A DNA stretch of 64,000 nt from Paenibacillus amylolyticus (GTDB lineage: Bacteria > Bacillota > Bacilli > Paenibacillales > Paenibacillaceae). The translations under genes and the position numbers were made by a program. The DNA lies in NCBI RefSeq assembly GCF_001570725.1, contig NZ_BCNV01000006.1, forward strand, positions 1 through 64,000, given 5' to 3'. This document shows, piece after piece, positions 2,904-63,319 of the stretch (its first letter is position 1; the number at the start of each line of letters is the position of its first letter). Under the pieces are notes generated by a model that did no database searches, was not told where the DNA came from, and saw only the letters and a program-made list of their open reading frames with translations.

Positions 2904-3953
2904 TTATAGAGCAGGTAGTCCAAGAACTTCGAGCATTTCATTACGTTTGAGCGATTCGGCAATGGGGCCGTCAATGAGCCATTTCTTTGCATTGAGGACA
3001 TAGACATGACCATTTTGAACAGCGGGTAGGCTTTTCCACACTTGGAGTTGTTGGATTTCGTTGAGTTCATCTTTTGTTTTTTGCAACGCTTCAGCTGACC
3101 CATCTGAGCTAATGGACACGATAAACAGATAGTCTGCTTTGATTTCAGGCAAAAGCTCAACCGAGATACTGGCATTCATCCGTTCCGGATTCTCTGCCTC
3201 TAGTTTGCTAACGAGAGCATCGGGAGTGAATCCAATTTCATAACCCGCTCCTACATAACTGGAAGCCGGGAATGGCGTGGATGGAATGGACGAGAAGAAC
3301 AAACGCATATCTTTCTCTTCCAGGCGAAGGAATGCAGCTGTAGGTTTGGTCTGGTTGATATCGGCTGCGAGCTTCTGAGCTTCAGTTACTTGATCTTTAT
3401 TTTTTTGTAAAAGCTGTTCAGCCCGCTCTTCAATATCCAGTGCAGTAGCTACCTGCACGATAGATTCCTGCCAATTACGGCGATCATAAGTGATCGTTGG
3501 GGCGATCTTCTCGAGTTGTTCGAGAATCTTGGCATCCAAACTGGCATTGGCAATAATGAGGTCCGGATTAGCGTTGACTACAGCTTCAAAATTGACACTT
3601 TCATTAATGGGTTCGACAGCCACGCCTTGAGCTTCAAGTTGCTCGTTCAGGTAGTCTTGTCGGCCAATAGGTGTAGCGAGTACCAGTGGTACCTCCAAGG
3701 AGAGGAGAATGTCCTCCATATTAATGGACACAATCCGTTCAGGATGTGCCGGGATTTCTTTGCTGCCACTGGCGCTCTCTACGGTCTTAGTAGCTGATTC
3801 AGCGGATGAGTCACCATCTGTCTCCGCAGCTGATTTCACGCCATCTGCAGATGGCTGCGAAGTGCTTGTAGGTGTCTGTCCACACGCAACAAGTAACATC
3901 GCGAGTATGAACAGTATCCCCGTTATTTTGACAAAATGCTGTTTGTACATCAT
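2904..3953 (-). CDS. Iron-siderophore ABC transporter substrate-binding lipoprotein
   Basis: A 349-residue exported protein. It has a lipoprotein signal ending LLVACG (lipobox cysteine at about residue 24), a Thr/Ser-rich linker to about residue 60, then a type III periplasmic-binding (TroA/FecB-like) fold. Typical elements are PERIVSINMEDILLSLEV near 72, NPDLIIANASLD near 130 and a C-terminal VLNAKKWLIDG. By family it binds a ferric siderophore outside the membrane and hands it to an ABC permease. No permease or ATPase is nearby, so it must share one encoded elsewhere. A Fur-box-like site at 3973-3987 sits just upstream, so iron repression is likely. The regulator gene upstream (5730 to 4048) carries a similar binding domain. 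The siderophore cannot be named. Confidence 0.88.
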   Translation of the reverse strand: MMYKQHFVKITGILFILAMLLVACGQTPTSTSQPSADGVKSAAETDGDSSAESATKTVESASGSKEIPAHPERIVSINMEDILLSLEVPLVLATPIGRQDYLNEQLEAQGVAVEPINESVNFEAVVNANPDLIIANASLDAKILEQLEKIAPTITYDRRNWQESIVQVATALDIEERAEQLLQKNKDQVTEAQKLAADINQTKPTAAFLRLEEKDMRLFFSSIPSTPFPASSYVGAGYEIGFTPDALVSKLEAENPERMNASISVELLPEIKADYLFIVSISSDGSAEALQKTKDELNEIQQLQVWKSLPAVQNGHVYVLNAKKWLIDGPIAESLKRNEMLEVLGLPAL

Positions 3954-4047: not shown

Positions 4048-5730
4048 TCATGGATTAATGTGCTGAGTGCCACCAAAAAGTTTGATGGTCTCATCAATAA
4101 TTTGATCATGGGCATACGGTGAATAATCCAACCAAGGCATTTCATCTAGCAGATATACATGCTGTTTTTGCACGGGTTTCAAATGTTGCCATAGCTGAGT
4201 ATGTTGGAGTTTATGCCAACGCTGCTGGGATTCCGAGTCTTGGTCCACAATCAGTAACATGCGATCTCCAACCATTTGAGGCAACTCCTGTTCATCCAAT
4301 GCACGATAGACTTGCCCTGGAAGCAGATCGTGTGAAGGTGAAACACCGAGATCGTTATATAGAACAGCACCCCCATTACGTCGCCCGTAGATTAACAGAT
4401 GACCCATCATGATATGAATGATGGAGACCGTATCCTTACCGATTAGATGACTAAGCTGCTCTTTGGCATGGGTTACTTTGTCATCATACTGCTCCAACCA
4501 TTGCTGAGCTTCCTGTTGCTGTCCCACAATGGAGGCAACTTGTACGAAATGTTCCCGCCAGTTCAAACCTTTCCATGGGATAACGATGGTAGGTGCAATT
4601 CGTTGCAGTGTTCTTTTTAACGTCTGGGCTTCGTACTCATTACAGAGTATGAGGTCTGGGCTCGCTTGCATCAACAACTCAACATTGGTTTGCCAGATAC
4701 GAGGATTCATGCGTTTGCTACGTCCCAGATGATAAGGAATATTCGAAAAAAACAGATTCCTGTGTTGATCCCGTCGGTTATCAATCAGTGCCGCATGGGG
4801 GATAATCTGCAATGCTAGCAGGTGGCCAGTCGTTCCGAAAGAAAGAGCAGCGATTTTATTGCGTTTCTGTCGTTGATAGGTAGAGGGAGACACACCAACA
4901 TATTTTTTGAATTTGCGGCTAAAGTAAAACTCGTCCTGAAAACCAACCTTTGAGGCGATATGTTTGATGGTTTGGCCGGGGACGAGCAGCATCTCTTTGG
5001 CCCGGTCCATACGGATGCTATTCACGTATTCCATGGGACTGATGCCAGTACGGTTTTTGAATACCCGCGAATAGTGCCATACACTCATGCCTGCCACTCC
5101 GGCAAGAACTTCCCGAGAAAGATGCTCAGCATATCCAAGTTCAATAAGTTCAAGCGTTTGATCCAAAGCAGAGGTGTGCTCCGAATCCCCTAATGCACTC
5201 TCTTTGGGAGGAGCATACACATGGGTCAACAATTCATGCATCAAAGTCTGAATACGAAATGGACGATTTTCTTGAGGTACAGAGATGCATTCATGGAGCT
5301 GGGAGGCAATTCTGGTACATTCCTGAAAGAGTTCACGCGGTAATTCATCAGCGTAAGACGAACGAAGTAACCCTTTTTGGTATACCTCTATTACAGTAGA
5401 TCCAGAAGTGGTTTTGTTCATATCTGAAATGGGCTTTAACAGATCAAAATATATCGCGAGTCCCTGTAAAGGATGAACTTCATCCGTTGTATATTCTATC
5501 GCTGTTCCTGGCAGGATTAGATAAATCTTGCCAAGTGTGGCATGATTTTGCCTATGCCCAATACGGATAGTGGCTTCACCGCCAGTACAGATGAGCAGAA
5601 GATGTGAGTCTGTTAATACGAATGGGGGAAGAAAAGACGCTTGATCTAGAACTTCGGATGTCTTGAATCTTGCATATAGGTCACGGGTATGGTCACCGTT
5701 AGATATCAGTGGAAAGACTTGCAAAGTCAC
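4048..5730 (-). CDS. AraC-family regulator fused to a siderophore-binding-like domain (Btr-like)
   Basis: 560 residues in three parts: an N-terminal cupin-like sensor region (about 1-170), a double helix-turn-helix AraC DNA-binding domain (about 185-285, with FQDEFYFSRKFKKYVGVSP as the second HTH), and a C-terminal periplasmic-binding-like domain (about 300-555, with SPDLILCNEYEAQTL) but no signal peptide, so it acts in the cytoplasm. This is the architecture of B. subtilis Btr (YbbB), which senses Fe-bacillibactin and activates its uptake genes. By analogy it should activate the binding-protein gene downstream. GTG start at 5730 chosen for the GGAGGG site 7 bp before it. A near-perfect Fur box lies at 5778-5792. 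Confidence 0.88.
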   Translation of the reverse strand: MTLQVFPLISNGDHTRDLYARFKTSEVLDQASFLPPFVLTDSHLLLICTGGEATIRIGHRQNHATLGKIYLILPGTAIEYTTDEVHPLQGLAIYFDLLKPISDMNKTTSGSTVIEVYQKGLLRSSYADELPRELFQECTRIASQLHECISVPQENRPFRIQTLMHELLTHVYAPPKESALGDSEHTSALDQTLELIELGYAEHLSREVLAGVAGMSVWHYSRVFKNRTGISPMEYVNSIRMDRAKEMLLVPGQTIKHIASKVGFQDEFYFSRKFKKYVGVSPSTYQRQKRNKIAALSFGTTGHLLALQIIPHAALIDNRRDQHRNLFFSNIPYHLGRSKRMNPRIWQTNVELLMQASPDLILCNEYEAQTLKRTLQRIAPTIVIPWKGLNWREHFVQVASIVGQQQEAQQWLEQYDDKVTHAKEQLSHLIGKDTVSIIHIMMGHLLIYGRRNGGAVLYNDLGVSPSHDLLPGQVYRALDEQELPQMVGDRMLLIVDQDSESQQRWHKLQHTQLWQHLKPVQKQHVYLLDEMPWLDYSPYAHDQIIDETIKLFGGTQHINP

Positions 5731-5777
5731 CAGAATCCCTCCTTAACTTGCAATAGTAACATTACATATGATGTATT

Positions 5778-5792
5778 TGAGAATAATTATCA
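5778..5792. promoter_or_regulatory. Fur box in a divergent promoter region
   Basis: TGAGAATAATTATCA matches TGATAATnATTATCA at 13 of 14 defined positions. It is 48 bp upstream of the AraC-type regulator and 86 bp upstream of the rightward gene at 5878, so it could control either or both. Confidence 0.8.
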
Positions 5793-5877
5793 ATTATCGC
5801 ATATTGTCATACAAATAAGAAGTCCATATGATAATATGAAATGATATACAGAAGAGAAAGAGAAGGGGGTATATAGA

Positions 5878-6303
5878 ATGTGGTTTTTACTTGGTTTTAT
5901 TATCTTAGTTTCGATATTTGGTATTCGAACGACGAGTCGATCCAATAAATTAAAACAGCAGTTCGGATCAAGGTTACATGCAGTAGGGATTCATCAGTCA
6001 GGGCTTCCACAAGTTGCGGAAGGCAGGCGGGTGGATGTGCTGATAGGTAATGGAAACTTTTATATTCAAAGTGGTCAGCAAACGTTTGAACTCTCATTAA
6101 GAAAAATCGGGAGTGCAGGATATCCAAATAGAACAGGTAGCTCAAACTCGAGAAATTACCTCGTAATACACTATGAGATGAATGGTAGGGTACGTCCAAT
6201 AGTATTAAGATTTATGAAGCCTGCGCACGCTAAAGCATTTCTATGGGAAATCGAGGGTCAGCTATTCACGCGAAACTCAAGTGATGGAATTATAAGACTT
6301 TAG
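5878..6303 (+). CDS. Membrane-anchored protein of unknown function
   Basis: 141 residues. The first 20 (MWFLLGFIILVSIFGI) form one N-terminal membrane segment followed by a basic stretch (TTSRSNKLKQQ), which suggests an N-out anchor with the rest on the cytoplasmic side. The remainder is beta-rich with no motif I recognise. AGAAGGGGG precedes the ATG and supports the start. It is divergent from the AraC-type regulator and shares its Fur-box-containing upstream region, so an iron-related role is possible but is only an inference from position. Confidence 0.75.
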   Translation: MWFLLGFIILVSIFGIRTTSRSNKLKQQFGSRLHAVGIHQSGLPQVAEGRRVDVLIGNGNFYIQSGQQTFELSLRKIGSAGYPNRTGSSNSRNYLVIHYEMNGRVRPIVLRFMKPAHAKAFLWEIEGQLFTRNSSDGIIRL

Positions 6304-6487
6304 AAATTTTGAGCATTGAACCGCGTAACTCTCCACTAAAAATTGAATTGATATAGGTTACCGAGCTGGAAAATAGCCAATACATAGTTCCCATCATCCA
6401 AACTGTTGAGCGAATAACCGGTAAAATCTCAACCGATGTTAATCGTAGAATTACTTAAATAACAGATCATTTAATTCACTACGCAAA

Positions 6488-6538
6488 AAAAGACAAGCTC
6501 CTCTCCTACGATGTCTGCAGGAAGAGGAACTTGTCTTT
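6488..6538. terminator. Bidirectional terminator
   Basis: An approximately 19-bp stem (AAAGACAAGCTCCTCTCCT against AGGAAGAGGAACTTGTCTTT) with an 11-nt loop lies between the convergent genes ending at 6303 and 6555, with A/T runs on both flanks. Confidence 0.7.
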
Positions 6539-6554
6539 ATAGTTAGAGCAGCGA

Positions 6555-7421
6555 TTAATATCTTTCCAGAATCGTCTGTGTCTTCAAGCCATCGGCAGGA
6601 ATCAGCCAGTTGTTGTTCTCCAGCAATTGCAGCAGTTGGGTACGCAGTCCGGATACGGCTACAGCATCATCGGTTTTGAAAGAAACCTCTACGATATTCT
6701 CAATACCTGTACCTGCTGCGTTGCGGATTGGCCATACTTCGAGTGTAAGTTCTTGACCATTCCATGTACCTTCATAACGTTGGAATGTGATCGGACCATA
6801 TGCACGGGATTGCGTAAGTTGTTGTTTGCCCCAGTTGGAGGAAGTCCAGTTTTTCAATTTGCCCGGGAGCTTGTCCAGTAACATGTTCAAGGCTTCTTGC
6901 TCCGAAGGAAGTTGAACACCTGTTGCTTTGGTATCGACTTTTTTGGTGTTGGAGAAGCTCAAGGTTTGTTTGCCATATCCCCAATCAATCTCAGCCTCGT
7001 AATTATCATCCGATTTGTCGAATCCTTCTTGGTTAGCCAGAGTCAGCGCTGCGTTGATATCGCCATTGATCACAGGGTAGCGTTTTTTATAAGTCAATTC
7101 GTAGTTATTCTTGTCATCCTTTTTGCGAAAACGAACGTTCCATCCTTGTTGATCCAATCCGAGAGCATTGGTGTCAAAGTACTCTACGTTAATGTTTCTT
7201 GGCGTGGAACTCAGGCCGAGTGTCTGAATCACTTCACTGCGTGGTGTCCCATCTGTATTCAATACAAGTTCCGGCTTGGCCAGAAACTTTACTTCATAAG
7301 CAGGAACGGCATTGGCAGCAGCTGAAGCCTGGGGTGCTCCCACAAATGTCATTCCACTTCCCAATGTTACGATGCTCAGCATCAATGAGGCAGTTACCTT
7401 TTTCCACTTTTTCAAAACCAA
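6555..7421 (-). CDS. Secreted CYTH-like domain protein
   Basis: 288 residues with a classical signal peptide (KKWKK, hydrophobic core, cleavage after APQASA near residue 35). The mature part resembles a CYTH/triphosphate-tunnel fold: an early YEVKFLAKP strand, GWNVRFRKKDD and YELTYKKRY (charged strands like the usual RxR and LTxK), then NYEAEIDWGYG. The N-terminal ExExK signature is only partial, so catalysis is doubtful. CYTH proteins normally act in the cytoplasm on triphosphates or polyphosphate; an exported one would be unusual. The TTG start at 7421 follows AGGAG by 5 bp. The fold assignment is inference. It has no partner gene in the same operon beyond the LysR gene upstream. Confidence 0.65.
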   Translation of the reverse strand: MVLKKWKKVTASLMLSIVTLGSGMTFVGAPQASAAANAVPAYEVKFLAKPELVLNTDGTPRSEVIQTLGLSSTPRNINVEYFDTNALGLDQQGWNVRFRKKDDKNNYELTYKKRYPVINGDINAALTLANQEGFDKSDDNYEAEIDWGYGKQTLSFSNTKKVDTKATGVQLPSEQEALNMLLDKLPGKLKNWTSSNWGKQQLTQSRAYGPITFQRYEGTWNGQELTLEVWPIRNAAGTGIENIVEVSFKTDDAVAVSGLRTQLLQLLENNNWLIPADGLKTQTILERY

Positions 7422-7561
7422 TCACTCTCCTAATCTGGATTAACGTACAGACTCACTTTATCGCCCGAATATATGAAAGCGATTAAAGGGAAGCGCACAT
7501 TGCGTTAACCCTGCATAGATTTGATGAATGGCAAACGATAGTTTATAGCGGATCAGGGCGA

Positions 7562-8470
7562 TCAGCCATGGAAAATGGGGAAGCCGTGACTCACCTCTCG
7601 CAGCACTTCTTTGAAGCGGTTTAACTGAACTGAAGGGTGGCGGTCCTTGTTATGTACCGTATAGATATGGCGCGGCGCTTGCTCTCCGGGAATGGGAAGA
7701 ACTTGAATGAGCCCCTGCTGTTCCTCCCACTGTACCGCCATCCGAGACATGAATGAGACATGCCCCCCGAGTAACACGAGCTGTTTGATCGCTTCCAGGG
7801 AATCCATCTCCACCGTGCTCCGCAAACGAATGTCATGTTGCGCAAGCCATTGGTTGGTTAACCGACGCGTACTGGATTCATTGCCATGTAAGGCAAAAGG
7901 AATCTGTGCGATATGATCGGGCGTTAATGCATCCTTCTGGGCCAAACCATGATGCGGAGAGCAGATTAATACCAAGTCATCTTCACACAGCGTTTCAGCT
8001 TGCAGAGCAGGTCCGACAAATGGCTCGGAAGAGATCACACCCAGATCAATCTGATGCCGAATTAACATCTCGCGAATAACAGGTGATGGTTTGACGGATA
8101 AGACGATACGAATGCCCGGGAATTCCTGAGAAAAGGTGTTGAGCATGGCGGGCAACAGATATGTAGCTGGTACATAGCTTGCCCCAATGTGCAGGGTGCC
8201 CCGATAGAGGCTGTCATATTCCTTCACTACCCGCCTTGCCTCTTGGGTCAAAGCATTGATTTTAACGGAATAATGGAGCAGAGCCTGTCCGGCTTCGGTT
8301 AGAAAAGTCTTTCCACTGCGCGATTCAAATAATCGAACACCCATCTCTTCCTCTAATGACTTCATATGAAATGTAACGGTAGGTTGTTTGATCCCCAGTA
8401 ACTCGGCCACGCTTGTCATGTGATGATGCTTATCGATCAGCTCAACAATTTGCAATTTGATCAGATTCAA
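7562..8470 (-). CDS. LysR-family transcriptional regulator
   Basis: 302 residues. The N-terminal winged HTH (residues about 1-60) reads HHMTSVAELLGIKQPTVTFHMKSLEEEMGVRLFES, and a LysR substrate-binding domain (about 88-295) follows. It is divergent from the ABC operon that starts at 8821 and is the obvious candidate regulator of it; the inducer is unknown. The TTG start at 8470 is 8 bp after AAAGGAGTG. A 192-bp palindromic repeat (8495-8686) sits inside the shared upstream region and may have displaced or split the original operator. Confidence 0.9.
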   Translation of the reverse strand: MNLIKLQIVELIDKHHHMTSVAELLGIKQPTVTFHMKSLEEEMGVRLFESRSGKTFLTEAGQALLHYSVKINALTQEARRVVKEYDSLYRGTLHIGASYVPATYLLPAMLNTFSQEFPGIRIVLSVKPSPVIREMLIRHQIDLGVISSEPFVGPALQAETLCEDDLVLICSPHHGLAQKDALTPDHIAQIPFALHGNESSTRRLTNQWLAQHDIRLRSTVEMDSLEAIKQLVLLGGHVSFMSRMAVQWEEQQGLIQVLPIPGEQAPRHIYTVHNKDRHPSVQLNRFKEVLREVSHGFPIFHG

Positions 8471-58668: not shown

Positions 58669-58849
58669 CTGACCTTCTCCTTGAACTGAATTGATAATAT
58701 CTGTGTCGTATAATCCTATTGAAATAGTAGGATATGTAAGTTGGATTAAATGTATCACGTTCTCACGGATTCTTCTAATGGATTTTTTCTATAAGCAGGG
58801 ATATTCAGGCTTCCTTGCATATATGTGAAGGAAATTGCCACGATTTTTA

Positions 58850-58878
58850 TTGACCGCTGTAAAATTTAGGATTAAAAT
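58850..58878 (+). promoter_or_regulatory. Promoter of first receptor gene
   Basis: TTGACC (58850-58855), a 17-bp spacer beginning G-CTGTAAAA, and TAAAAT (58873-58878). The same arrangement (TTGACC, CTGTAAAA, TAGAAT) precedes the paralog at 60488-60516, so the two promoters are duplicates. Confidence 0.75.
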
Positions 58879-58932: not shown

Positions 58933-60318
58933 ATGGAACCTACAACTACGATACGCTCATATATTGAGGACTACATCAGGAAACAGGGATATACCCTGCA
59001 GTATTTTGCCGATATATCGGGAGTTAACGCTGGAACGCTTAGTGCGATTATTAAGGGAACTCGGCCCATCGCTATGGCTCAACTGGATTTGATTACCCAA
59101 GGCATGAAGCTGGAAGAGGGGTATTTCTACGAGGTCTATGGGGCTGAATGTTTCGTGGAATCGGCACCCCATTGGAGAAGACTGGAGCCGTTCCTGCAGC
59201 GCTGTGCTGAATTGGACAAGCTGGAATGTATTCAGAAGGTTATCCAGCAAGTGACGGATGATCGCTCGTATATCTCGGAGTTGTTCGAGATGGCGGAAGG
59301 CATGCTTGAGCGTGGACAGACGAAGGCTGCACGGATGTTGTACGAATGTGTGGCGGAATGTGAGAAATACCAGCACTCGGAACGTCTGGCTCTGTGTCAG
59401 TATCGCATCTTTACGCTATCTCTCGGTCAGGACCAGCATGAGAATCTTCGTGCGGCCGTACATTTCGAACCGTATATTAATCGGCTGGATGAGGAACGGC
59501 AACTGGATGCGATAAAAGACCTGGCGAATACATACTTGGCTCTAAGATACTGGGACAAGGTATTCACTTTGGCTGAAGATCTAGAGCAGAAGACTAAAAT
59601 TTTGCAATCCTACACAAAGAAAAAAACGGATAAAAGTGATCGGATAACGGCATATCCTTTGTTTGTATATAGAGCATATTCAAATTTGCTGAAGTCTTCC
59701 GCATGTGAGAGACAAGGACGCTACGAAGAAGCTCTACAATATACAGAGCTCTACGCCAGTCTTACAAAAATTGCTGAACCGGATGAAGAAGATCAGATTT
59801 ATATTGATAAATTCGAGGGTTGGACGGAAGCAAATAGCTATCTATATAAGTTAATGATGGGCGATCAAGGTGTTTTGCCGGCTTACGTGAATTATATAGA
59901 GCAAAATGAAATGGAATTGCTGCCAGCAATGATAAATATTTTGGAGGCGGCTAATAAATTTGATCATAATATTGATGATATCATTTACAAGTTCAGCGAT
60001 CAGATTAATTCAGAAGTTACGCGATTAAAGGGATATACTGAACAGGTGGAATTAGATATGTACATCACGTTCTTACTTGAACGCACTATCTATCATCTCA
60101 ACCGTTGTGAGTATCCAGAAGGTATGAGGCAGCTGATGAATTGTTTGGAAGAAGCCGTCAAAATAAAAAATCAAACAGACATTATCCATTGTGTAGCGTT
60201 ATATGAGAGATATAGAAATATAGCAAATGCTGAAATTGAGCATCAGTATAAATTAATAATGATGGAGGTTCAGAGCTATTATGATAAAAAAGAAAATCCT
60301 GCATTTAATCTTGCTTAG
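58933..60318 (+). CDS. AloR/AimR-like peptide-responsive transcription regulator (HTH + TPR)
   Basis: About 461 residues from the ATG at 58933, 5 bp after GGAGGTGG. An XRE-like HTH (about 5-60: YTLQYFADISGVNAGTLSAIIKGTRPIA) is followed by a long alpha-helical TPR-like array (about 75-455). This is the RRNPP build (Rap, NprR, PlcR, PrgX, AimR): a cytoplasmic receptor that binds a short re-imported peptide and changes DNA binding. It matches the AloR receptors described for Paenibacillus polymyxa (from memory). The 3' end overlaps a tiny secreted-peptide gene by 38 bp. The C-terminal half is more AT-rich and more divergent from the paralog than the N-terminal half, as expected for a specificity-determining region. 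Confidence 0.83.
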   Translation: MEPTTTIRSYIEDYIRKQGYTLQYFADISGVNAGTLSAIIKGTRPIAMAQLDLITQGMKLEEGYFYEVYGAECFVESAPHWRRLEPFLQRCAELDKLECIQKVIQQVTDDRSYISELFEMAEGMLERGQTKAARMLYECVAECEKYQHSERLALCQYRIFTLSLGQDQHENLRAAVHFEPYINRLDEERQLDAIKDLANTYLALRYWDKVFTLAEDLEQKTKILQSYTKKKTDKSDRITAYPLFVYRAYSNLLKSSACERQGRYEEALQYTELYASLTKIAEPDEEDQIYIDKFEGWTEANSYLYKLMMGDQGVLPAYVNYIEQNEMELLPAMINILEAANKFDHNIDDIIYKFSDQINSEVTRLKGYTEQVELDMYITFLLERTIYHLNRCEYPEGMRQLMNCLEEAVKIKNQTDIIHCVALYERYRNIANAEIEHQYKLIMMEVQSYYDKKENPAFNLA

Positions 60319-60412
60319 CTTTATTGTTATTAACGTTAGTCAATTGGTTACTTTCGACGATGTGTCACCTATTCAAGCATTATTCCACGTGCATGGAGGC
60401 GGCGGTCTGTAG
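60281..60412 (+). CDS. Candidate signalling peptide precursor (AloP/AimP/Phr-like)
   Basis: A 43-residue ORF that starts inside the last codons of the receptor gene, with GGAGG 12 bp before the ATG. The N-terminus is a signal-peptide-like sequence: basic MIKKKIL, then hydrophobic HLILLSFIVINVSQLV. A short polar linker (TFDDVSPIQALF) precedes the tail HVHGGGGL at the extreme C-terminus. The tail is rich in small residues, like the mature hexapeptide of AloP13 in P. polymyxa (SHGRGG, from memory). Secretion, cleavage of a C-terminal 6-8-mer and re-import are inferred. A terminator follows at 60444. Confidence 0.78.
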   Translation: MIKKKILHLILLSFIVINVSQLVTFDDVSPIQALFHVHGGGGL

Positions 60413-60443
60413 TTATTAAATCAGAAATTTGTTGGTTGCTATA

Positions 60444-60476
60444 AACTTACTTCCTGAAAGGGGAGTGAGTTTTTTG
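60444..60476 (+). terminator. Terminator after receptor/peptide operon
   Basis: Stem AACTTACTTCC / GGGGAGTGAGTT with two G-T pairs, loop TGAAA, then six T. It ends the operon 32 bp after the peptide stop and before the next receptor's promoter. Confidence 0.8.
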
Positions 60477-60487
60477 TTATGTGGAGA

Positions 60488-60516
60488 TTGACCACTGTAA
60501 AACACAAGATTAGAAT
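60488..60516 (+). promoter_or_regulatory. Promoter of second receptor gene
   Basis: TTGACC, 17-bp spacer with A-CTGTAAAA, TAGAAT. It closely repeats the promoter of the first receptor gene in spacing and core. Confidence 0.75.
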
Positions 60517-60574: not shown

Positions 60575-61942
60575 TTGAAACTTGCACCTACGATACGCAC
60601 ATATATTGAGAATCACATGAGGGAACATGGATTTAAATTGCAGCAATTCTCTGATATTACTGGTGTTAACGTTGGAACCTTGAGTGCTATTCTTAAAGGT
60701 AGCAGACCAATGGCAGTGAGTCAGCTAGATCAGATCACTGCAGGTATGGGATTGGAAAAGGGTTACTTCTATGAAATGTACAGTGTGGAGTTCTTTATTG
60801 AAGCGGCTCCGCATTGGAGACGTTTAAAGCCTTTCCTTCATTGTTGTGCTGAGTTTAATAAGTTAGCTTGCATTCAAAAGGTTGTCATTCAAGTTACGGA
60901 TGATCGCTCCTACATTTCAGAATTATTTGAGATGGCCGAAGAATTTAATAAGAATGGGCTGAGTGAAGCTGCACTTATTTTATATGAATGTGTGGCAGAG
61001 GGAGAAAAATATCAGCATTCGGAGCGGTTGGCTTTATGTCAGTACCGTATTTTTTTGCTCCATAAAACCATTAAACAATTCGATAATCTAAGTGCAGCGA
61101 TAAAATTTGAGCCATATATTGAGAAGCTCGATGAAGAGATACAATTGGATGCAATCAAGGACCTAGCAAATGTTTATAACACAATACATCATTGGGATAA
61201 AGTTGATAAATTGGCGGATGCACTGGAACGGAAAGTTGATTTTCAGCTCGAACTTCAATCTCGAAGACGGAAAAATATAAAGAGGGTTGCCTTTTATCCC
61301 ATATTCACATATAAAGCGTACGCAAATTTATTAAAGGCGAGTGTATGTGAAGCACGAAAGGAATTTGAAAAGGCGCTGGAATACACAGATATTTATGCAA
61401 AAGTTGTTGAAGTTTCTAACCCGACTGAGGAAGAACAGATATTAATAGATCGTTTCAAAGGATGGGCAGAAGGAAATCGATATTTATATCGCTTAAGTAG
61501 TGGAAAGCATGAGGTTATTGAATATTATTTAGATTACCTTGAATCCAATCCTCACGAAATCTTAATAGCATTCGTAAATATTGTTCAGTCAGCTAATCAA
61601 CATTTGCTTAATATTGATTTTGCATTGGATAGATTTGATTCGTATATTACAGATTTTAATACGGAGAGACATTTAGAAGGAACCTACAACCAGCAAATGT
61701 TAAATCATAGGTATATACGCTTTTATTATGAGTTAGCGAAGTACAGGCTCCACCAGCAAAAGTATATGATGGGTATTGAAGCTTTGCTGACAAGTTTGGA
61801 ACTGGCTTCAAGTAGTAGAGATGACCTTATGTCTATTAAATTAATTGATCTTTATGGGAAATTTAGAAGCCAAGCAACTATTGAGCAGGAAGAACTGTAC
61901 ACTGGATTATTAACAAACCGAAGTATAGAAAACTATATATAA
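60575..61942 (+). CDS. AloR/AimR-like peptide-responsive regulator, paralog without visible peptide gene
   Basis: About 455 residues from the TTG at 60575 (GGAGGTGGGAGAA upstream, the same site as in the first receptor). It has the same HTH (KLQQFSDITGVNVGTLSAILKGSRPMA) and helical-repeat region. The blocks APHWRRL, VTDDRSYISELFEMAE, YQHSERLALCQYRIF and LDAIKDLAN are nearly identical to the first receptor; the last 230 residues are clearly more divergent. No overlapping or adjacent secreted-peptide ORF was found (a 22-codon ORF at 61976 is basic and lacks a signal). It may be an orphan that listens to the first peptide or to one encoded elsewhere. Two Spo0E-like genes lie downstream. Confidence 0.82.
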   Translation: MKLAPTIRTYIENHMREHGFKLQQFSDITGVNVGTLSAILKGSRPMAVSQLDQITAGMGLEKGYFYEMYSVEFFIEAAPHWRRLKPFLHCCAEFNKLACIQKVVIQVTDDRSYISELFEMAEEFNKNGLSEAALILYECVAEGEKYQHSERLALCQYRIFLLHKTIKQFDNLSAAIKFEPYIEKLDEEIQLDAIKDLANVYNTIHHWDKVDKLADALERKVDFQLELQSRRRKNIKRVAFYPIFTYKAYANLLKASVCEARKEFEKALEYTDIYAKVVEVSNPTEEEQILIDRFKGWAEGNRYLYRLSSGKHEVIEYYLDYLESNPHEILIAFVNIVQSANQHLLNIDFALDRFDSYITDFNTERHLEGTYNQQMLNHRYIRFYYELAKYRLHQQKYMMGIEALLTSLELASSSRDDLMSIKLIDLYGKFRSQATIEQEELYTGLLTNRSIENYI

Positions 61943-62084
61943 AATACTACTCTACAAAGAATATAAGCTCGTGCAATGCACTTAAACATGTTGCTTAAGG
62001 TGAGATTTAGATTTTTGCAAAGTATTCGATTATCCATTGTTTAGAGAATGTACCCTAGAATAGGTTGAAAAAGGGGTGCATGCT

Positions 62085-62258
62085 GTGAGTGAACTGATAC
62101 AGATCAGAGACCAAATAGAACAAAGTAAACAATATCTTAGTCTCTTGGCAGAGCAACATGGCATGCAGGACTATAAAGTTCTTCAACAGTCTAGGGTTCT
62201 AGATGAACTGATTAATAGATATATTCGACTTGCTAAGAATAATTTAAAAAGAAAGTAG
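62085..62258 (+). CDS. Spo0E-like sporulation regulatory protein (aspartyl-phosphate phosphatase family)
   Basis: About 57 residues from the GTG at 62085, 8 bp after AAAAAGGGG. The Spo0E-family hallmark is KVLQQSRVLDELINRYI (SQxLDxLI-type), flanked by a helix of similar length on each side. Spo0E members dephosphorylate Spo0A~P and thus delay sporulation. It is a tandem relative of 63131-63319, with nearly identical leader (GGGGTGCATGCT) and N-terminus. The location just downstream of quorum-sensing receptors suggests population-linked control of the phosphorelay (inference). Confidence 0.83.
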   Translation: MSELIQIRDQIEQSKQYLSLLAEQHGMQDYKVLQQSRVLDELINRYIRLAKNNLKRK

Positions 62259-62295: not shown

Positions 62296-62820
62296 TTGCA
62301 GATTGATATACAAAAGCTTTATGACAAATATATAACGTTAAACATTCCTAATCCATTCACTTTAGAGCAGATCCATGATCGACTAACACAGAAATACTAC
62401 GCTGAGAAGGTCGATTTAGAAGAGTTTTCTGACTTGCGTAACGACCCTTATGCCGGATTCGATCAGGCGGTTGCAGCTTATGTATTTAAGGATGAGAGGG
62501 GAACTAAGCAATTAATTAGCCTGAACAAGGATGAAGATATCCATGAGCCACTAGAATTTGCATGGATAATTGAATCTACTGTGCGAGGATTTTCTCTTGT
62601 ATTAAATCTTGAAATCGACGTATTTTATGGGATGGAAGAGAGTGAGATGACTCTTGGTAATCAACGTTTTGAGGAATATCTGATCCTACTCTATTTAACA
62701 GGTTACATTGAGTTTGAAAATGATTACTTCATAAATCCTTTGCGTGCTCGTTATCGAGAGGGATACAGACTTCGTTATTTTGGCATGCAGAACGGTGATG
62801 ATAACTATCTATATGAATAG
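62296..62820 (+). CDS. Protein of unknown function
   Basis: 174 residues from a TTG 8 bp after GAGG. It is soluble, acidic, and mixed alpha/beta. There are no cysteine or catalytic motifs I recognise: it runs LYDKYITLNIPNPFTLEQIHDRLTQ, EPLEFAWIIESTVRGF, then FEEYLILLYLTGYIEF. It lies between the two Spo0E-like genes and its end overlaps a 45-codon ORF by 8 bp, so these small genes may be transcribed together. AT-rich like the neighbouring receptors. Confidence 0.65.
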   Translation: MQIDIQKLYDKYITLNIPNPFTLEQIHDRLTQKYYAEKVDLEEFSDLRNDPYAGFDQAVAAYVFKDERGTKQLISLNKDEDIHEPLEFAWIIESTVRGFSLVLNLEIDVFYGMEESEMTLGNQRFEEYLILLYLTGYIEFENDYFINPLRARYREGYRLRYFGMQNGDDNYLYE

Positions 62821-62950: not shown

Positions 62951-63130
62951 ACATGCTATAAATGTCTATGCCCCACATCTTGTAGAGATGAGGAGAGTTC
63001 ATGTCTCCATGCAAAATGCTTGATGTTGAAAGTATCTCGATGTAAATAAATATTTTATTCTGCAAAGGAATAAAATATGAATTTTTTGGCAATGTATCCT
63101 AAAATGTTATACAAAGAGGGGGTGCATGCT

Positions 63131-63319
63131 ATGAGTGAACCGAGGCAGATCAAAGATAAAATCGAACGGAATAGGCAAGAGTTAAGTCGTTTGGCGGAGA
63201 ATCATGGCATGCAAGACAACAAAGTCCTTCAACAATCGATGCTACTGGATGAACTGATTAATGAGTATAATCGTTTTAAATATAAGACCGGGTTTATGAA
63301 TAGACAACCGATTGCATAA
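63131..63319 (+). CDS. Spo0E-like sporulation regulatory protein (aspartyl-phosphate phosphatase family)
   Basis: About 62 residues from the ATG at 63131, preceded by GAGGGGGTGCATGCT; longer in-frame starts exist but this one matches its paralog at 62085. The family motif is KVLQQSMLLDELINEYNRF, with EPRQIKDKIERNRQELSRLAENHG before it. It should act on Spo0A~P. The two copies are a tandem duplication. The gene ends inside the stem of its own terminator at 63303. Confidence 0.83.
   Translation: MSEPRQIKDKIERNRQELSRLAENHGMQDNKVLQQSMLLDELINEYNRFKYKTGFMNRQPIA

Follow-up and report, generated by a model that had tools for sequence, protein, structure and literature searches.

Comparative analysis identifies a chromosomal AloR-AloP quorum-sensing pair of the known Alo type, with a diversified peptide signal, in Paenibacillus amylolyticus and related species

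Introduction

Does a 43-codon open reading frame (ORF) that overlaps the end of a receptor gene on the chromosome of Paenibacillus amylolyticus encode the signal that this receptor senses, and which genes would such a pair control? We addressed this question in a window of 64,000 nucleotides (NZ_BCNV01000006.1, positions 1 to 64,000 of the forward strand), by which we mean the whole stretch of DNA that was analysed, together with related loci in other genomes. In P. polymyxa, the receptor AloR13 activates the promoter of the downstream spo0E gene and SHGRGG, the mature form of its peptide AloP13, shuts this activity off, with an effect from 10 nM (Voichek 2020, PMC7425212); in B. subtilis, Spo0E acts as a phosphatase in the regulation of Spo0A (PMC7425212). 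Alo13 is the only Alo system that has been functionally tested in the literature searched. On the basis of sequence comparisons, we conclude that the locus described here is a chromosomal AloR-AloP quorum-sensing pair of the known Alo type, a subfamily of the RRNPP systems, which is kept across dozens of related species and whose signal has diversified.

A receptor gene overlapped by a short peptide gene

The receptor gene aloR1 (58933..60318, + strand) encodes 461 aa from its ATG, and the product is predicted to be a peptide receptor and transcription regulator with a helix-turn-helix (HTH) and a TPR-like domain. The peptide gene aloP (60281..60412, + strand) shares 38 bp with it (60281-60318) and encodes a 43-aa propeptide, MIKKKILHLILLSFIVINVSQLVTFDDVSPIQALFHVHGGGGL, composed of a secretion signal and a C-terminal tail with the predicted mature end VHGGGGL (60389-60409, + strand). 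Its GGAGG ribosome-binding site (60264..60268, + strand) lies inside aloR1, 12 nt before the ATG; this spacing is longer than usual, yet both the site and its spacing are conserved in nearly all orthologues. When the sequence was re-read, the coordinates, the 38-bp overlap, the 43-codon ORF and the GGAGG site given in an earlier sequence-only reading of this DNA proved exact.

A promoter upstream of aloR1, TTGACC-N17-TAAAAT (58850..58878, + strand), belongs to a longer, near-invariant footprint whose upstream start is ATTGCCACG, and this footprint is letter-perfect or nearly so upstream of most orthologues, down to ~61-65% receptor identity. A terminator-like stem-loop of 13 pairs (60443..60472, + strand) is predicted to close the aloR1-aloP transcript. 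The earlier reading had not noted this stem-loop, nor the second receptor gene and the two Spo0E-like genes farther along. The flanks are ordinary chromosomal, non-phage genes encoding a flavin oxidoreductase, a glyoxalase, MFS, TetR and luciferase-like proteins and an ABC permease.

Relationship to described Alo receptors

Pfam matches to AloR1 were weak, both for TPR families and for HTH_3, which fell just below the cut-off (E = 1.8e-4), and the AlphaFold (AF2) model was confident (pLDDT 87.9, pTM 0.82) and all-helical, with an HTH and an array of helical-hairpin repeats. Pfam and the AF2 model thus give AloR1 the N-terminal HTH and C-terminal TPR-like domain that define Alo receptors, and aloP, with 43 aa, a K-rich start and a hydrophobic core, corresponds to the downstream ORF of 32-50 aa with a hydrophobic N-terminal signal that is expected of an Alo locus. 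Homology to AloR extends over the full length of the protein. AloR1 aligned at 34% identity over 453 columns (query residues 1-446 of 461) with the receptor of the AloR13-type locus L118 (genome G006), which is overlapped by the gene of a peptide ending in SHGRGG, followed by a Spo0E-like gene and preceded by a second receptor gene, and at 42% over 461 columns with the plasmid receptor WP_029515185.1 of P. polymyxa ATCC 842; in published clustering, the cut-offs for Alo were 30% identity to AloR13 and 80% coverage (PMC10075063). The ATCC 842 receptor aligns end to end and is likewise overlapped by a 43-aa signal-bearing ORF, annotated as a hypothetical protein, but the tail of that ORF is ...YIGGA whereas tails of the window clade are xHGxGxL, and no Spo0E-like gene is annotated within the stretch examined around it.

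The locus resembles the Alo13-Alo14 system of P. polymyxa (PMC7425212) in its HTH and TPR-like receptor, in the short peptide gene that overlaps the end of the receptor gene and carries a C-terminal xHGxG, in an adjacent second receptor that lacks an intact peptide and in a downstream Spo0E-like gene. It differs in receptor sequence (34% identity), in the extra hydrophobic last residue of the tail, in having two Spo0E-like genes and in the position of the second receptor, which stands between aloP and spo0E in the window and upstream in Alo13. The chromosomal flanks also differ (motA/motB-like by eye), and positional orthology with the Alo13 locus was rejected on this ground. The earlier assignment to the AloR-AloP type is upheld by the AloR homology, by a two-gene overlap as in P. 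polymyxa ATCC 842 and by an xHGxG tail as in AloP13.

We searched 76 genomes of the genus, that of the window included. A match to AloR1 at E <= 1e-60 was present in 66 of the 76, and in ~48 there was a receptor of the syntenic type (61-100% identity), truncated in two cases; by named records, the orthologues belong to the P. amylolyticus, pabuli, taichungensis, xylanexedens, illinoisensis and barcinonensis group. In a FastTree phylogeny, a quick, midpoint-rooted reconstruction with long branches, the AloR1 clade and the clade of the tandem paralogue AloR2 were sisters (support 100), the Alo13/14 clade was next (87), and these clades were placed apart from other P. polymyxa-type receptors. The genome of the window itself encodes four full-length receptors and one partial relative; the receptor at C5:190329 has its own peptide, ending in DHGLGT, with a Spo0E-like ORF downstream (by eye), and the receptor at C6:165552 has its own peptide ending in GHGWGGG.

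Spo0E-like genes and the proposed circuit

Two genes for Spo0E-like Spo0A phosphatases (PF09388) lie downstream in the window. Gene a (62076..62258, + strand, with a start at 62076 or 62085) matched the family above the cut-off at E = 7.6e-9, and gene b (63077..63319, + strand), whose real start is likely 63131 behind GGGGG, matched at E = 1.3e-12; a 174-aa ORF without a convincing Pfam match lies between them (62296-62820). Other genes stand between aloP and spo0E, among them the paralogous receptor gene aloR2 (60575..61942, + strand). Across syntenic loci, a Spo0E-like gene was found downstream in 43 of 46, and the three exceptions include one locus at the end of its contig and one strain whose aloR1 is broken.

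By analogy with Alo13, we consider it likely that binding of the trimmed peptide by AloR1 lifts a Spo0E-like brake at high cell density. According to this proposal, aloR1 and aloP would be co-transcribed from the conserved promoter, with separate initiation of the peptide at the ribosome-binding site that lies within the end of aloR1. After secretion, trimming of the propeptide would leave its C-terminal end, probably VHGGGGL; an oligopeptide permease would then return this mature peptide to the cell, where the TPR-like domain of AloR1 would bind it. Free AloR1 is predicted to activate the downstream Spo0E-like phosphatase gene or genes and peptide-bound AloR1 to stop doing so, with the sign and the target taken from Alo13; crowding would thus bring more peptide, silence AloR1-driven spo0E and allow Spo0A to act, releasing the brake on sporulation.

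The alternative that survives best, which we nevertheless judge unlikely, is that this is a true AloR-AloP pair whose main target is not spo0E; the receptor would instead act on its own promoter and that of aloR2, or on other genes, and the Spo0E neighbours would be incidental. The promoter of aloR2 (TTGACC-N17-TAGAAT, 60488..60516, + strand) is a copy of the aloR1 promoter with a similar spacer, and across 6.76 Mb of genome the pattern has exactly two occurrences, one ahead of each of these receptor genes, whereas controls gave 0 hits. Since a search before the spo0E genes and elsewhere in the genome found only these two copies, the link to spo0E is one of position and analogy, and the sole recognisable shared regulatory sequence is the one that fronts the two receptors. 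It also speaks for a target outside spo0E that the AloP13 peptide lowered other alo genes in P. polymyxa, including aloR14 (PMC7425212). Against this stand the direct control of spo0E by Alo13 and the retention of the Spo0E-like gene at nearly all loci, even though anywhere from zero to three or more receptors intervene. Control of the Spo0E-like genes is the reading we prefer.

One further sequence element may be mentioned as a lead only. The sequence ATTGCCAC lies ahead of the aloR1 promoter at ~58834-58841. Its first seven bases recur in reverse complement, as TGGCAAT, at ~63087-63093 in the conserved leader of spo0E gene b. ATTGCCA/TGGCAAT is also found upstream of the aloR gene at C6:165552 and was absent from the P. 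polymyxa-type aloR upstream regions checked; it could be a putative operator half-site.

Conservation and diversification of the peptide

The size of the aloP ORF says little in itself, because 94 ORFs of at least 30 aa overlap the surrounding 10 kb, and we therefore turned to a comparative test. In the P. amylolyticus/pabuli/taichungensis/xylanexedens group, no intact syntenic receptor that was examined lacked an aloP ORF behind it, and the start of this ORF was nearly always at -38 from the receptor stop. We collected 42 distinct orthologous propeptides, all of which have a basic N-terminus, a hydrophobic core and a conserved HGxG-type tail. The sequence-only reading had named as refuting outcomes the loss of the ORF from relatives that keep the receptor and a disrupted signal region in close relatives, and both tests favoured the pair.

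These propeptides end in 24 distinct last-seven tails, all of which fit xHG-x-[G/A]-x-[L/I/V/Y] with H and G invariant. Across 128 pairs, nonsynonymous divergence was absent at HG (pN 0.000 vs pS 0.375) and low at the near-invariant second G (pN 0.031 vs pS 0.586), whereas the positions x1 (pN 0.466 vs pS 0.372) and x2 (pN 0.406 vs pS 0.498) were not clearly constrained; the spacer gave pN 0.315 vs pS 0.488. An invariant HG and a near-invariant G beside freely varying x1 and x2 suggest that the tail is a constant framework in which individual positions are free to change, as is seen in pheromones that diversify in specificity. The tail had been put forward as a new peptide code, which is an overstatement, as VHGGGGL is one of at least 24 variants of an AloP13-type motif. 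The length of the mature form is uncertain: the register with SHGRGG gives VHGGGG, but the last residue is hydrophobic (L, Y, I or V) in 42 of 42 propeptides, which argues for VHGGGGL or HGGGGL, and we regard VHGGGGL as the probable form.

From these comparisons we conclude that the small gene aloP is real. It might still encode a signal-bearing peptide with another role, such as a membrane peptide, a leader or a toxin-like product, that AloR1 does not sense; secretion and binding by AloR1 are predictions, and the gene overlap constrains the first 12 codons for another reason. We give this reading very little credence, since an almost invariant C-terminal HG-x-G among freely varying neighbours fits a specificity-bearing pheromone and the motif is the same as that of the experimentally active SHGRGG. 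That the 43 codons are a chance ORF in the overlap can be dismissed, for although ORFs of this length are common in the region, this one recurs behind every intact orthologous receptor examined and its pN lies far below pS at HG and G. A pheromone sensed by AloR1 is thus the reading retained here.

The receptor is under purifying selection overall (aloR1 pN/pS ~0.12), with a marked difference along its length: on the tree of AloR1 orthologues, residues 1-165, comprising the HTH and first repeats, accumulated ~1.0 changes per site, as opposed to ~5-6 for residues 231-461. Such a pattern is what diversification of sensing at constant DNA binding would produce. A branch-wise co-change test on 42 receptor-peptide pairs, which has low power, identified no AloR1 column that co-varied significantly with the variable aloP positions; the best p value, ~7e-3 among several hundred receptor columns, does not survive multiple testing.

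A second receptor without a peptide gene

The tandem paralogue aloR2 is 49-51% identical to aloR1 and has no peptide gene; an ORF with a signal and HGxG was found behind none of 34 AloR2-type receptors. These receptors are nonetheless under purifying selection (pN/pS 0.12-0.20; ~0.2 for aloR2), and loci carry none, one, two, or three or more copies. With the same promoter, a similar HTH and no peptide of its own, AloR2 probably acts on the same DNA sites as AloR1. It is conceivable, as a tentative extension, that AloR1 and the peptide-less AloR2-type paralogues respond to a single xHGxG peptide, or that the paralogues compete with AloR1 for shared DNA, so that one signal would give graded control of Spo0E.

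Whether these conserved peptide-less receptors read the peptide of AloR1 is the main question that the locus raises, and the locus makes the role of orphan RRNPP receptors directly testable. The kind of system is already described and its general picture is unchanged; what is worth following is the diversified peptides and the peptide-less tandem receptors. The orthologous series offers about two dozen naturally occurring peptides combined with DNA-binding domains that hardly change, a set for learning how RRNPP receptor specificity changes. It also supplies a candidate operator region that is conserved, and loci in which the peptide-less receptors ahead of spo0E number from zero to three or more.

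Two loci represent natural mutants. In L098 (genome G040; 5397-7867), aloR1-aloP is intact and aloR2 is interrupted by an insertion that carries an IS30-like transposase (by eye), making this a natural aloR2 mutant. In L060 (Paenibacillus sp. OVF10; 4986-6553), the pair has been lost naturally: aloR1 is broken, and what is left of the peptide, ...FFSHGTGGY, has no intact signal ORF.

Comparison with other peptide-receptor systems and phage relatives

PlcR-PapR and Rap-Phr share a TPR-type fold with AloR1, and PlcR, like AloR1, combines HTH and TPR. A search of the PDB with the AloR1 model placed a PlcR-PapR-DNA complex second (E ~1e-3, TM 0.28/0.43) and Rap proteins, including RapH, among the best 50, all of them weak matches. 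These resemblances are of fold alone, with no significant sequence similarity to PlcR or Rap; a profile search of PDB sequences recovered no solved RRNPP receptor, only HTH-only controllers and unrelated chance matches with weak E values. Membership of PlcR-PapR was rejected because the profile search found no sequence similarity to PlcR, and membership of Rap-Phr because AloR1 has an HTH whereas Rap has none.

The AimR-AimP arbitrium system of Bacillus phages is alike in its receptor-peptide operon and in a peptide that switches off a downstream target, but it belongs to temperate phages, whereas aloR1-aloP is chromosomal with non-phage neighbours. The kinship with phage AimR suggested earlier found no support, with AimR absent both from the sequence matches and from the 50 PDB fold matches shown; we reject it and retain a likeness of general layout only.

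AloR-like genes were also observed in two Brevibacillus phages. In SecTim467 (L139, KT151957; 2661-4484), a Spo0E-like gene (PF09388, E = 3.8e-10) directly precedes an AloR-like gene (29%, E = 7e-56), and the ORF overlapping the latter downstream has no signal peptide. In phage Emery (L141, KC595516; 2420-3697), gp60 is AloR-like (25% over 64%, E = 3e-16); the best viral fold match, S5MC02, is 425 aa, equal in length to gp60, and is probably the gp60 protein. A search of viral contigs with gp60 as query found no relatives. The next gene, gp61 (3772-3903), encodes VKKFFSILILSVMVLSVGTSVSAHGGIGWISGDIKPFHGGIGW, in which HGGIGW occurs twice after a signal peptide. Together, gp60 and gp61 are a candidate signalling pair of the phage whose pheromone would be doubled; upstream there is an AgrB-family gene.
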